From positions 1-61,174 of the forward strand of contig NZ_MPOB01000014.1 of the NCBI RefSeq assembly GCF_002148795.1: a stretch of 61,174 nucleotides of DNA, written 5' to 3'. Below, in pieces: positions 57,553 through 60,697 of this stretch. Below the pieces are notes generated by a model. That model made no database searches, was not told where the DNA came from, and saw only the letters and a list, made by a program, of their open reading frames with translations. A program made the position numbers and the translations under genes. The DNA is from Oceanibaculum nanhaiense. Its GTDB lineage: Bacteria > Pseudomonadota > Alphaproteobacteria > Oceanibaculales > Oceanibaculaceae. Every line of letters begins with the position of its first letter. The first letter of the stretch is position 1.

Positions 57553-58368
57553 ATGCTGATTGCCCAGATCACCGACACCCACATCACCCGCGAGCGCAAG
57601 CCGGCCTATAACCGGGTCGATACCGCCGCCTATCTGGAACGCGCGGTGGCGCATGTGAATGCGCTCGATCCGCGCCCCGACATCGTCGTCATGACCGGCG
57701 ATCTGGTGGATGAGGGCAGTGCCGGCGAATATGCCATTCTGCGCGACATCCTGGCGCCGCTCGCCATGCCGGTCTATCTGATGCCGGGCAATCATGACGC
57801 GCGCGGCGCGCTGCGCGCCGGCTTCCCCGATCATCCTTATTTGGCTCAGGGCGGGGAGTGGATCCAGTTCGCCATCGAGGAATACCCGCTGCGCCTGCTG
57901 GCGCTGGACACGGTGACGCCGGGCCGCGGCCATGGCGAGCTGTGCGAGGGCCGGCTGGGCTGGCTTTCCGACCGGCTGGCCGAACAGCCGGAGCGCCCGA
58001 CGCTGGTCATGCTGCATCACCCGCCTTTCCCGACGGGCATCGCCCATATGGACAAGATCGGCCTGCTGCAGGGCGCGGAGGCGCTGGGCGGCATCCTCAG
58101 CCGGCACAGGCAGGTGCAGCGCGTGATTTGCGGCCATCTGCACCGGCCGATCCAGGCGGTCTGGCATGGCACGCCGGTCAGCGTGGCGCCCAGCCCGGCG
58201 CATCAGGTGGCGCTGGATCTGCGGCCCGGCGGCCCGTCGGCCTTCATGATGGAGCCGCCGGCGATTCATCTGCACAGCTGGACTCCGGCCGGCCTGGTCA
58301 CCCATCAGAGCTATATCGGGGCGTTCGACGGCCCCTACCTGTTCAAGGATGGCTCGCCGGCAGGTTAG
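57553..58368 (+). CDS. GpdQ-like class III phosphodiesterase, second copy
   Basis: A 271-residue phosphodiesterase. Metal motifs are ITDTHI (residues 6-11), MTGDLVDEG, MPGNHDARGAL, MLHHPPFPTGIAHMD and CGHLHRP. YLMPGNHD and the C-terminal GAFDGPYLFKDG resemble GpdQ of Enterobacter closely, more than the enzyme at 41525 does. It is the last gene of the LacI-controlled importer operon (21-base gap), implying hydrolysis of the imported compound, perhaps glycerophosphodiesters, in the cytoplasm. Confidence 0.92.
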   Translation: MLIAQITDTHITRERKPAYNRVDTAAYLERAVAHVNALDPRPDIVVMTGDLVDEGSAGEYAILRDILAPLAMPVYLMPGNHDARGALRAGFPDHPYLAQGGEWIQFAIEEYPLRLLALDTVTPGRGHGELCEGRLGWLSDRLAEQPERPTLVMLHHPPFPTGIAHMDKIGLLQGAEALGGILSRHRQVQRVICGHLHRPIQAVWHGTPVSVAPSPAHQVALDLRPGGPSAFMMEPPAIHLHSWTPAGLVTHQSYIGAFDGPYLFKDGSPAG

Positions 58369-58376
58369 AGTGCGAT

Positions 58377-58492
58377 CGCTTTAAATGCGATCACCCAAGT
58401 GATGCATTTAAAGCGTGAATCGCCCTCTATCTTTTTGATTAGAGGCGGATTCACGTTTCAGGGTGAACCAGATATCTGATTCACCCTGAAAC
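58377..58492. repeat. Three back-to-back hairpins between convergent genes
   Basis: Hairpin 1 (58377-58415): CGCTTTAAATGC plus ATCAC pairs with GTGAT plus GCATTTAAAGCG, one bulged G, loop CCAA. Hairpin 2 (58414-58455): CGTGAATC...CTCTA pairs with TAGAGG...GATTCACG, 14 of 16 positions. Hairpin 3 (58455-58492): GTTTCAGGGTGAA with TTCACCCTGAAAC around AGATATCT. Neighbours share end bases, so the cluster fills the gap between the two convergent genes. It may be a double-sided terminator or a copy of an interspersed palindromic element. Confidence 0.75.
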
Positions 58493-58501
58493 GATCCGGC
58501 T

Positions 58502-58795
58502 CTAGAGCTTCTCGGCCTGCTGCCTGCGCGCGTCACCATGCCGGGGCGGGAGGGCCGCCAGCAGCCATCCCGCCAGCGGAACCGCGGCCAGCCACATAAC
58601 GAAGGCGGCGGACTGGCCGGCGATCAGCAGGGCGATGCCGGGTGCGAAGATCAGCACACTGGCCAGCGCGGCGGGGCGCCGCCTGGCTTCCGGCAGGCCG
58701 GACACGCGGCGGCGCTTCGGGTCGGTCGCGGTCAGCACGATGATGCCGGCGAGCGAGAGCAGGATCGCCGCCAGGGTCACTGTCACGGTCGTCAT
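58502..58795 (-). CDS. Small membrane protein of a PepSY/iron operon (DUF3325-like)
   Basis: A 97-residue protein with three hydrophobic helices (VTVTLAAILLSLAGIIVLTA, ASVLIFAPGIALLIAG, AAFVMWLAAVPLAGWLLAAL) and basic loops. Small proteins like this (DUF3325) often follow PepSY membrane proteins in siderophore-related operons; I assign it by place and shape more than by motif. It overlaps the PepSY gene's stop by 4 bases. Confidence 0.7.
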   Translation of the reverse strand: MTTVTVTLAAILLSLAGIIVLTATDPKRRRVSGLPEARRRPAALASVLIFAPGIALLIAGQSAAFVMWLAAVPLAGWLLAALPPRHGDARRQQAEKL

Positions 58796-60372
58796 TCGGC
58801 GGCCACCGGGCGCTTGGCGCCGCTCCAGCGGGCTTCCGGGCGGCGGGAAAAGGCAGCGTAGAGATAGCCGATCCCGCCGGTCGCGAGGGCCAGGTCGAGC
58901 AGCACCACCATGTCGTTACCGCTCGCCATCAGCGGGCCCCAGCCGGTGCCGTCGATCAGCCAGCGCAACACCGGCAGGGCGATCAGCACGGCGCCCAGCA
59001 ACCCCCGGTAAAGCCGGGTAAGCAGCACCTCGTCGCGCAGGATGCAGCCGATGACGATGGCGAGGCCAGAGGCGATCAGGAAGCTGGCGGGCGTCCAGAA
59101 CAGCACGGTCCCGACGGGCAGCGCCAGCAGGTAGCCGATGCCGCTGGCCGCCAGCGCAATGGGCAGGCCATAGCCGACCACCGGCACGGACCGCCCGAGC
59201 CGGCGCCACAGTGGGCTGTCCGCGCGTCGGCGCAGCCAGAGCTGCAGGCCGGTCAGCGTGACGTAGCACATGGCGAGCCCCAGCGCGAACCAGATCACCC
59301 GCGACAGCAGGCCGGCGAAAGTGCCGAAATGCAGCACGCTGACCAGGGTGAAGGCGGTATCGCCGGCCGAGGGTGTGGTGCCGATGGTCGGCTTCGGCCC
59401 GAGATAGGAACCGTCGCTGCCCTTGAAGACATGCTGCTGGCTCTGCAACTCGCCTTCACCGGCAAGATGGAAGGCGAAGACCCGCGCATCGGCGCGGCCA
59501 TAATGCATGATCGAGACGAAGGCCGGGGCGGAGTGCGACTTGTCGGCGGACTGCCGCAGCATCGCGTCCAGATTGGCCAGCGGGGCCGGGGTGGCATCCT
59601 CGCCCTCGGGCGTGCCGATGATGGTTTCGATCAGTTTTTCCTGGTCGCCGCCGAACGCCACCATGCTGATCGTCATCAGCCCGATGGAGCCGGCGAAGCT
59701 GAGGAACGCGCCGGTGAAAGCCAGCACGAAGGCGAAGGGCAGGCCCCAGCTGCCCGCCAGGATATGGCGGTCGCGGGCGTTCAGCAGCCGGCTCGACAGG
59801 CGCGGTGCGACGAACAGATCCTTGATGAGATGCCGGTGCAGCAGGAAGCCGGACACCGCCGCCGCCAGCATGGCGAAGCCCAGTATGCCGGTAAGGTAGA
59901 GCCCCACCGGGTTGGGCGCGTGCAGGTTCACATGCAGTTCGACCAGGAAATGCTCCAGCGCGCTGACCGGATCGTCGAATTCGTCGGCATAACCTTCCTG
60001 GCGCGTCAGGGTCTCCCCGGTCACCGGATCGAAGGTGAAGCGCACGCCCTTTTCCATCGGATGGCCGTCCTCCTTCACGCCATGCGTGTGGAAGAAGGCG
60101 CTGATATGGCCCGCCGGATTGTGGAACAGGTTGATGTCGTCCAGATATTCCGGATCGACCTGTCCGGCCAGTTCGCGGATTTTCGCATCCATCGGCGCCG
60201 CGAGCGGCTGCTGCGCCCGGCTGCCGCTGACCGACCAGGTGCCGATCTCATGCGCGAACACCACCACGGCACCGGTCAGGATAACGACATAGAGCGCCAG
60301 GCCCAGCACCGTGCCGGCCCAGCCATGCACCGCCAGCAGTCTTTTGCTGCGCGCCTGGGAGAGTTCGATCAT
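58792..60372 (-). CDS. PepSY-associated membrane protein (iron-uptake type)
   Basis: A 526-residue inner-membrane protein. It starts SKRLLAVHGWAGTVLGLALYVVILTGAVVVF, the PepSY_TM hallmark; large periplasmic PepSY-like portions (GVRFTFDPVTGETLT near 110) alternate with helices, and HFGTFAGLLSRVIWFALGLAMCYVTLTGLQLWLRRR is the second conserved block. The C-terminal third has four more helices. Relatives such as FsrB/FegB-like proteins are thought to reduce ferric siderophores in the periplasm. It lies between two small membrane-protein genes; no TonB receptor is in the window. Start at MIELSQARSKR. Confidence 0.85.
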   Translation of the reverse strand: MIELSQARSKRLLAVHGWAGTVLGLALYVVILTGAVVVFAHEIGTWSVSGSRAQQPLAAPMDAKIRELAGQVDPEYLDDINLFHNPAGHISAFFHTHGVKEDGHPMEKGVRFTFDPVTGETLTRQEGYADEFDDPVSALEHFLVELHVNLHAPNPVGLYLTGILGFAMLAAAVSGFLLHRHLIKDLFVAPRLSSRLLNARDRHILAGSWGLPFAFVLAFTGAFLSFAGSIGLMTISMVAFGGDQEKLIETIIGTPEGEDATPAPLANLDAMLRQSADKSHSAPAFVSIMHYGRADARVFAFHLAGEGELQSQQHVFKGSDGSYLGPKPTIGTTPSAGDTAFTLVSVLHFGTFAGLLSRVIWFALGLAMCYVTLTGLQLWLRRRADSPLWRRLGRSVPVVGYGLPIALAASGIGYLLALPVGTVLFWTPASFLIASGLAIVIGCILRDEVLLTRLYRGLLGAVLIALPVLRWLIDGTGWGPLMASGNDMVVLLDLALATGGIGYLYAAFSRRPEARWSGAKRPVAAE

Positions 60373-60385
60373 CGCATCCGGTCTT

Positions 60386-60697
60386 TCAGGAAATGGTCCA
60401 GAGCACGGCGATGCCCGCCGCGTTGACAATGGCCAGGCCGGTCAGGAGCAGCGCGGCGCGGCGCAGATTCTCCGCCAGGATGGCGTAGAAGAAGGGGGCG
60501 GCCCACAATGCTGGAAACAGGATCAGCGGGAAGATCAGATGATCGACACCGGCGGCGCCGGCCGGGAACCATAACGGCATCGCCCCCATCGCCAATATGG
60601 CGATCAGCACGGCCATTGGCCCGCCCAGCAGCCATCGTGCCTGCCGCGCCGTTAACCAGCGCCTGCCCGTCTCGCCTGCCATGCTCCGCGTCTCCAA
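60386..60697 (-). CDS. Small membrane protein upstream of the PepSY gene (DUF3649-like)
   Basis: A 103-residue protein with three hydrophobic helices (GGPMAVLIAILAMGAMPLWF, HLIFPLILFPALWAAPFFYAIL, AALLLTGLAIVNAAGIAVLW). In known iron operons a DUF3649 protein occupies this slot before the PepSY protein; here the match is by context. It starts METRSMAGE and ends 13 bases before the PepSY start. First gene of the operon in this window. Confidence 0.7.
   Translation of the reverse strand: METRSMAGETGRRWLTARQARWLLGGPMAVLIAILAMGAMPLWFPAGAAGVDHLIFPLILFPALWAAPFFYAILAENLRRAALLLTGLAIVNAAGIAVLWTIS

Follow-up and report, generated by a model that had tools for sequence, protein, structure and literature searches.

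Between two convergent genes of Oceanibaculum nanhaiense, the stretch of DNA analysed here (the window; 61,174 nucleotides of contig NZ_MPOB01000014.1, assembly GCF_002148795.1) carries a hairpin cluster. The cluster is one of many copies of a mobile double-palindrome repeat that is widespread and belongs to the known CIR/RIME kind. The new part is a link to IS630. The repeat is likely to be a non-autonomous, MITE-like double palindrome that has no gene and depends on IS630-type transposases acting in trans, a link for which we present strong circumstantial evidence. Double-palindrome repeats of the Alphaproteobacteria have been catalogued since the 1990s, and the literature surveyed names no mover for them; the spacing-exact match of the outer ends to those of IS630-family elements supplies a concrete and testable one. 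If true, an IS630 mover would explain how arms can be specific to a genome while the feet are common to all, and would offer an alternative reading of the GANTC sites, because of which CIR repeats have been tied to cell-cycle methylation. Our literature search found no title or abstract opening stating an IS630 link for such repeats; subscription papers lay largely outside this search, and novelty is unproven.

The first-pass annotation had described three long stems filling the whole gap between the convergent genes at 58377-58492. The hairpins are real (58377-58415, 58415-58454 and 58454-58493): the window copy folds with z = -11 on both strands, with minimum free energies of -70.4 and -72.5 kcal/mol for the two strands versus about -30 after shuffling, and none of 200 shuffles reaches either value. 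The proposed extent was too short, because an outer TAGAG/CTCTA-GATC stem closes the cluster and makes the unit 58366-58504. This span includes both flanking TA dinucleotides around a 135-bp body, GAG...CTC, at 58368-58502, the boundaries of the window copy being set by analogy with the empty sites of other copies. Nor is there a free gap, since the element ends are the TAG stops of both neighbours. The left end contains the stop (58366-58368, plus strand) of a calcineurin-like metallophosphoesterase gene (PF00149; 57553-58368, plus strand), and the right end contains the stop (58502-58504, minus strand) of a convergent 97-aa gene with no Pfam match (58502-58795, minus strand), so that both genes take their stop codons from the element. 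The stops of both genes differ in the genus relatives G003 and G001. These genes are separated by about 40 kb in G003 and by about 26 kb in G001, with their relative orientation kept; the element therefore sits at a synteny breakpoint (window positions 58363-58545), and the window copy lacks a simple empty site. Beside the 97-aa gene, a 545-aa open frame occupies 58792-60429 on the minus strand.

The element is laid out as TA-GAGTGCGATCG-(arm-loop-arm)-GTGAATCGCCCTCTA, a 10-nt linker, and TAGAGGCGGATTCAC-(arm-loop-arm)-GATCCGGCTC-TA. Its first half, rod A (58366-58429), is a palindromic unit of the form TAGAG-nGCGATC-arm-loop-arm-GTGAATCGC-n-CTCTA that matches its own reverse strand at 79% (query 2-65). 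The linker, TCTTTTTGAT at 58430-58439, is a variable stretch in an alignment of copies (A2), and beyond it rod B (58440-58504) is a like unit in inverted orientation, with an 85% match to its own reverse strand (query 76-140). Inspection by eye shows that the feet of rod A recur in the reverse complement of rod B, with TAGAG-n-GATC on one side and GTGAATC-n-CTCTA on the other, and the element is therefore two versions of one unit, inverted. The same bases allow two alternative folds, either two long rods or a three-hairpin junction. The minimum-energy fold of the window copy is the junction, and the consensus fold of 28 copies is the pair of rods, each of which bulges on its inner side by 3 nt (TGA or TCA). 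In the window copy these bulges fall at 58416-58418 (TGA, rod A), where the inner-end spacing is lengthened, and at 58451-58453 (TCA, rod B; both read on the plus strand).

The suggestion that the cluster is an interspersed palindromic element was borne out by its many copies, by empty sites in relatives and by strong compensatory change. Far from being single-copy and unconserved, it recurs within its own genome and is present across the class. By blastn, the own genome (3.84 Mb) holds four full copies, with 84-100% identity to the window copy, as well as several shortened forms and one solo rod. The genus relative G003 has three full copies, and none was found in the relatives G001 and G002. 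In a class-wide sample scored with a covariance model (at most eight candidates per genome), the element occurs in 33 of 385 genomes and 29 of 276 genera. The proposed search seed fared less well: the paired-arm pattern is found at a single place in the genome, the window copy itself. The arms vary and the feet are conserved, and an arm seed is therefore not diagnostic. A first sequence pattern had no matches. A looser framework pattern retrieved 67 stretches in named genomes, from Rhodospirillaceae, Magnetovibrio, Rhodovibrionaceae, Pelagibius, Xanthobacter, Aquabacter and Rhizobiales records, and from two MAGs labelled Alphaproteobacteria or Proteobacteria only. Because the framework pattern fixes the letters GTGAATC/ATTCAC, their conservation in A2 is imposed; as a check we inspected copies found by the covariance model, itself built from A2. 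Searches of phage and plasmid collections with the window copy, and of the plasmid collection with the copy from ECT2AJA, returned no similar DNA.

Across genomes, it is the palindrome rather than its sequence that is kept. An analysis of 28 copies, drawn from 11 genomes, shows pairing in 94.4% of cells and changes on both sides in 30 of 49 pairs. Cells with a double change number 233, versus 62 after shuffling and at most 54 after sliding, and the covariation score is 0.449, versus 0.142 and at most 0.096, respectively. The arms are thus genome-specific yet still complementary. One could read the very stable folds as a sign of selection on RNA structure, either in a functional RNA or in a bidirectional 3'-end element that acts as a terminator or mRNA stabiliser. 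The gene context could be taken the same way, as 28 of 60 copies lie between convergent genes, 27 between tandem genes and 5 between divergent ones (contexts rest on rough longest-ORF calls, which gave the window copy the wrong left neighbour, and the long ORFs within which two copies were flagged are possibly spurious frames). However, avoidance of the promoter side is expected of any tolerated insertion, and at tandem sites the two orientations of the element are equally common (14 and 13). The window copy also lacks the T run that follows the GC-rich stem of an intrinsic terminator; predictions over 58200-58700 gave neither terminator-like nor promoter-like sites, and a search of the same interval against Rfam at E up to 5 gave eight matches, all under gathering scores.

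The mismatches within the arms bear on this question directly, since selection on one RNA strand would give more G-U than A-C mismatches. In 79 distinct rods from 48 well-cut copies there are 34 GU and 69 AC mismatches. Bin_26_3, whose copies have shared mismatches, accounts for 9 and 42 of these, and without it the counts are 25 and 27. A wider and less clean count over 104 rods, badly cut copies included, gives 56 GU and 85 AC (13 copies without parsable ends were dropped and 63 kept, of which at least 10 are cut too long or too short). The lack of a G-U excess favours a DNA palindrome, and maintenance at the level of DNA rather than RNA is well supported. Together with the presence and absence of the element at orthologous sites, described below, these observations make selection for an RNA structure quite improbable. 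The palindrome is probably kept through hairpin-templated (template-switch) correction of the DNA, or through descent of the copies in each genome from one founder.

Comparison of filled and empty sites gives good support for mobility of the element. We searched the flanks of ten copies within the genus and recovered five clean empty sites, which place the insertion at YTAR. In the filled sites a TA flanks each end of the body, which starts with GAG and finishes with CTC. The empty sites read CTAG (L070 filled, L200 empty), TTAA (L071 against L204; TTTAG against L206 and L207), CTAG (L072 against L196 and L199), TTAG (L055 against L197) and CTAA (L002 against L227), and one of the two TA copies has decayed in L055 (to TG) and in L072 (to CA). 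In L071 the left outer base is T and the right copy is still CTAG, so the duplication is of TA and not of a four-base target. Clean empty sites were not recovered for L003, L004, L005 and L007, and only one end of L006 was informative.

These insertion sites also bear on an affiliation with REP/BIME elements, in which the two rods would be inverted REPs mobilised by a Y1 (RAYT) single-strand transposase. The window family does resemble them in being made of interspersed palindromes in inverted pairs, and a pair of inverted palindromes with an asymmetric bulge looks much like a REP doublet. However, TA on both sides of a two-ended GAG...CTC body is unlike single-strand insertion. PMC3733652 defines REPs by a GTAG or CGTC foot and a hairpin of 20-40 bp; by contrast, the units here are about 65 bp long and their ends are TAGAG/CTCTA, with neither foot. 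Of the 12 genomes searched for the REP-type transposase that the first-pass annotation had proposed to look for (PF01797), a single one has it, G065 from Pelagibius. The transposase is absent from the four genomes of the window's genus and from G031, and the 11 genomes that lack it include a one-contig genome with 12 pattern-matching copies. We therefore regard a REP-type origin as very unlikely.

The position of the target within stop codons has a consequence for the host genes. The first base of the body is G. When the target is the TA of a stop codon, TAG or TAA, the gene therefore still ends in TAG, and insertions at the 3' ends of genes can thus be silent. Two cases are seen at the base level in aligned letters, L070 and L002, in which the element entered a TAG and a TAA stop, respectively, and left a TAG stop. 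More broadly, the support is statistical: the longest upstream frame stops at the TAG of the element at 35 of 57 ends, where one third is expected (p 1.3e-5), or at 33 of 55 without two ties (p 4.6e-5). The 57 ends are those of 104 with an upstream frame open for at least 150 codons, and copies from the same genome among them are not independent. Insertion that preserves stop codons would explain why elements lie flush against gene ends, as in the window.

The link to IS630 comes from the ends. IS630-family insertion sequences (ISs; PF13358) of about 1,050 bp in members of the class have the ends YTA-GAGY, with TA on either side; the NCBIfam IS630 assignment was confirmed for all three tested (L269, L295 and L265). 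These ISs and the outer ends of the element have in common GAGY-N15-(T/G)GAATCG, which amounts to two short blocks only. To count the second block, which was chosen by eye beforehand, we took from 60 IS630 loci those with TAGAG[CT] at both ends, 1,030-1,085 bp apart. Nineteen ISs qualified, further copies of the same IS being left out, and 18 remained once L309, which is nearly a duplicate of L308, was excluded; the other loci have different ends, a single end, or are cut by a contig end. At a spacing of N15, the second block (at least 5 of 7 positions) is present at 22 of 36 IS ends, with 17 of the 18 ISs having at least one such end, and at 36 of 49 outer element ends (27 A and 22 B ends, parsed from 29 of 31 representative copies). 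Shuffling yields about one match for IS ends and element ends alike. At the inner ends of the element (27 of each), the block is found in 2 of 54 at N15 and in 16 of 53 at N18, although some ends, mostly inner ones, were cut a few bases off, which lowers their scores. In the window copy, outer end B (58477-58502, minus strand), GAGC-N15-TGAATCA, fits the second block at six of seven positions, and outer end A (58368-58393, plus strand), GAGT-N15-GCGATCA, is a weak match at four of seven. The inner ends score 5 of 7 (B) and only 2 of 7 (A) at N18.

IS630 co-occurs with the element, in 18 of 33 element-bearing genomes versus 74 of 352 others (Fisher p 6.7e-5), an association for which genome size and IS load are confounders. 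The partner is multicopy in G031, and a search for PF13358 found none in 15 of the 33 carriers, including G060 and G063. We also considered whether the N15 spacer was inherited from resident ISs. This idea was unsupported, as 11 ends from five genomes show no resemblance, with the exception of end A of G285, which matches a resident IS at 11 of 15 positions.

A different transposase could in principle account for the same target. The element might be a MITE moved by an IS5-family enzyme of the IS427/IS711 type, which likewise inserts at YTAR and duplicates TA. Consistent with this, PF13586-type ISs in G031, G059, G062 and G063 lie within TA...TA sites, mostly YTA...TAR, and IS711 is described in PMC2266754 as using YTAR and favouring Bru-RS palindromes. 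However, the terminal repeats of these ISs begin with GG rather than GAGY where they were found (none was found for about half of 30 loci), G000, G001, G003 and G060 have no PF13586 match, and in L252 the IS5-type IS is a passenger at the end of an element copy. We thus consider an IS5-family mover unlikely, and return to IS630.

We propose that an IS630-family (Tc1/mariner-type DDE) transposase supplied by a separate IS would bind the outer ends of the element, recognising two blocks 15 nt apart, TA-GAGY and (T/G)GAATCG. Tc1/mariner transposases have paired helix-turn-helix parts, and helix-turn-helix families match the first ORF of L269; bipartite recognition of the ends would suit such an enzyme. 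This transposase would presumably also be responsible for the observed insertion at YTAR with duplication of TA. The 15-nt spacer would not be read by the transposase and would be free to drift. In most rods, the inner 3-nt bulge may serve to shift the inner second block to N18; with the inner block at N18, only the outer pair would be usable and the double unit would move whole. We infer this role for the 3-nt offset; a role of GANTC as part of the second block is likewise an inference.

GANTC sites could instead point to a chromosomal role, with the element serving as a structure-specific DNA site (a cruciform, or a site linked to methylation) whose spread is secondary. GANTC is present at 2.9 per copy versus 0.56 after shuffling (eight representatives), and PMC2229807 describes CIR repeats as CcrM-associated. 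The enrichment is partly circular, because the pattern that fetched the eight copies fixes GAATC and ATTC. Moreover, the diverged copy L175 keeps the TGA bulge and loses the GANTC of the foot, and GANTC lies within the second-block window at only 16 of 49 outer ends. We give a primary chromosomal role very little credence, and place the element among known repeats as follows.

The RIME repeats of Rhizobium/Sinorhizobium, reportedly described by Osteras in 1995, have a two-palindrome layout. In 600 kb of S. meliloti pSymB we located four double palindromes, each about 103-117 bp long, that have the build of the window element and end in TAGAG or a similar sequence (L343:16747-16850, L339:34494-34599, L346:26162-26264 and L349:25544-25660). 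Two were found by the covariance model (E 0.0042 and 5.6e-9) and the others by paired ends and blastn. By eye, GAGN-N15-(T/G)GAA is present in rod A of three of them; the second block was not seen at the other ends of these three, nor in the fourth copy. They are probably RIME-type repeats. The Bru-RS1/2 repeats of Brucella were reportedly first described by Halling and Bricker in 1994. PMC2267715 presents them as palindromic intergenic repeats of 103-105 bp and PMC2266754 as insertion hot spots of the YTAR-targeting IS711. At L252:807-950 (in G031, apparently the ECT2AJA chromosome), an IS5-family IS of 834 bp, whose TIR is GGCCATAC, lies precisely at the TA that terminates a copy of the element, which echoes the preference of IS711, Bru-RS being compared here by description.

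RUP, of pneumococcus, is a single inverted-repeat unit. In contrast, the window family pairs two palindromic units in inverted orientation, and it shares no more than two short blocks with the IS. PMC2229807 describes RUP as a gene-less, IS630-associated MITE with a TA target and ends common to IS630-family ISs. The same paper (Delihas 2008) treats CIR, the Caulobacter CcrM-associated intergenic repeats (Chen and Shapiro 2003), as elements of Caulobacter and Brucella that have two arms joined by a linker, a terminal TA and GANTC motifs, and its passages on CIR report no known mover; PMC10969869 mentions CIR briefly. CIR and the window family are alike in being alphaproteobacterial and intergenic, with two long inverted-repeat arms and a linker, a terminal 5'-TA-3' and GANTC, and both the linked palindromic arms and the terminal TA are seen in the window family. 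The GANTC of CIR is conserved at a hairpin apex; in the window family, 16 of 49 outer ends have GANTC in the second-block window. CIR is about 110 bp long versus 135-139 for the element, and the two are likened by description alone, not by sequence. We can suggest, tentatively, that the window family, CIR, RIME and perhaps Bru-RS may form one superfamily of IS630-driven miniature transposons, in which the 3-base inner offset would set the usable ends, the spacer would be a freely evolving palindrome specific to each genome, insertion at the TA within a stop codon would be self-repairing, and GANTC would be part of the second transposase-binding block.

In its own genome the window family looks old and is probably immobile. 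Identity among parsed copies averages 97.7% within ECT2AJA and is 92.7% within Bin_26_3, 86.1% within the own genome (three copies) and 80.3% within G003, versus an average of 74.6% between genomes (eight genomes, one copy each). Only one IS630 copy with GAGY (GAGT) at both ends was found in the own genome; its reading is split among three frames, versus two in L269 and L295. It therefore looks broken, and the window family may be stranded. The longer IS630 of this genome, on C16 (L259), has no GAGY ends. On C4 of the own genome, the shortened forms L005 and L055 are missing hairpin 3, or both of the outer hairpins so that GGATCGTTCGATCC is left, as though the hairpins had been lost singly. 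Elsewhere, at about 209-362 of L139 and at the right end of L320, element copies abut the start of the next copy and have a CTAG in common.
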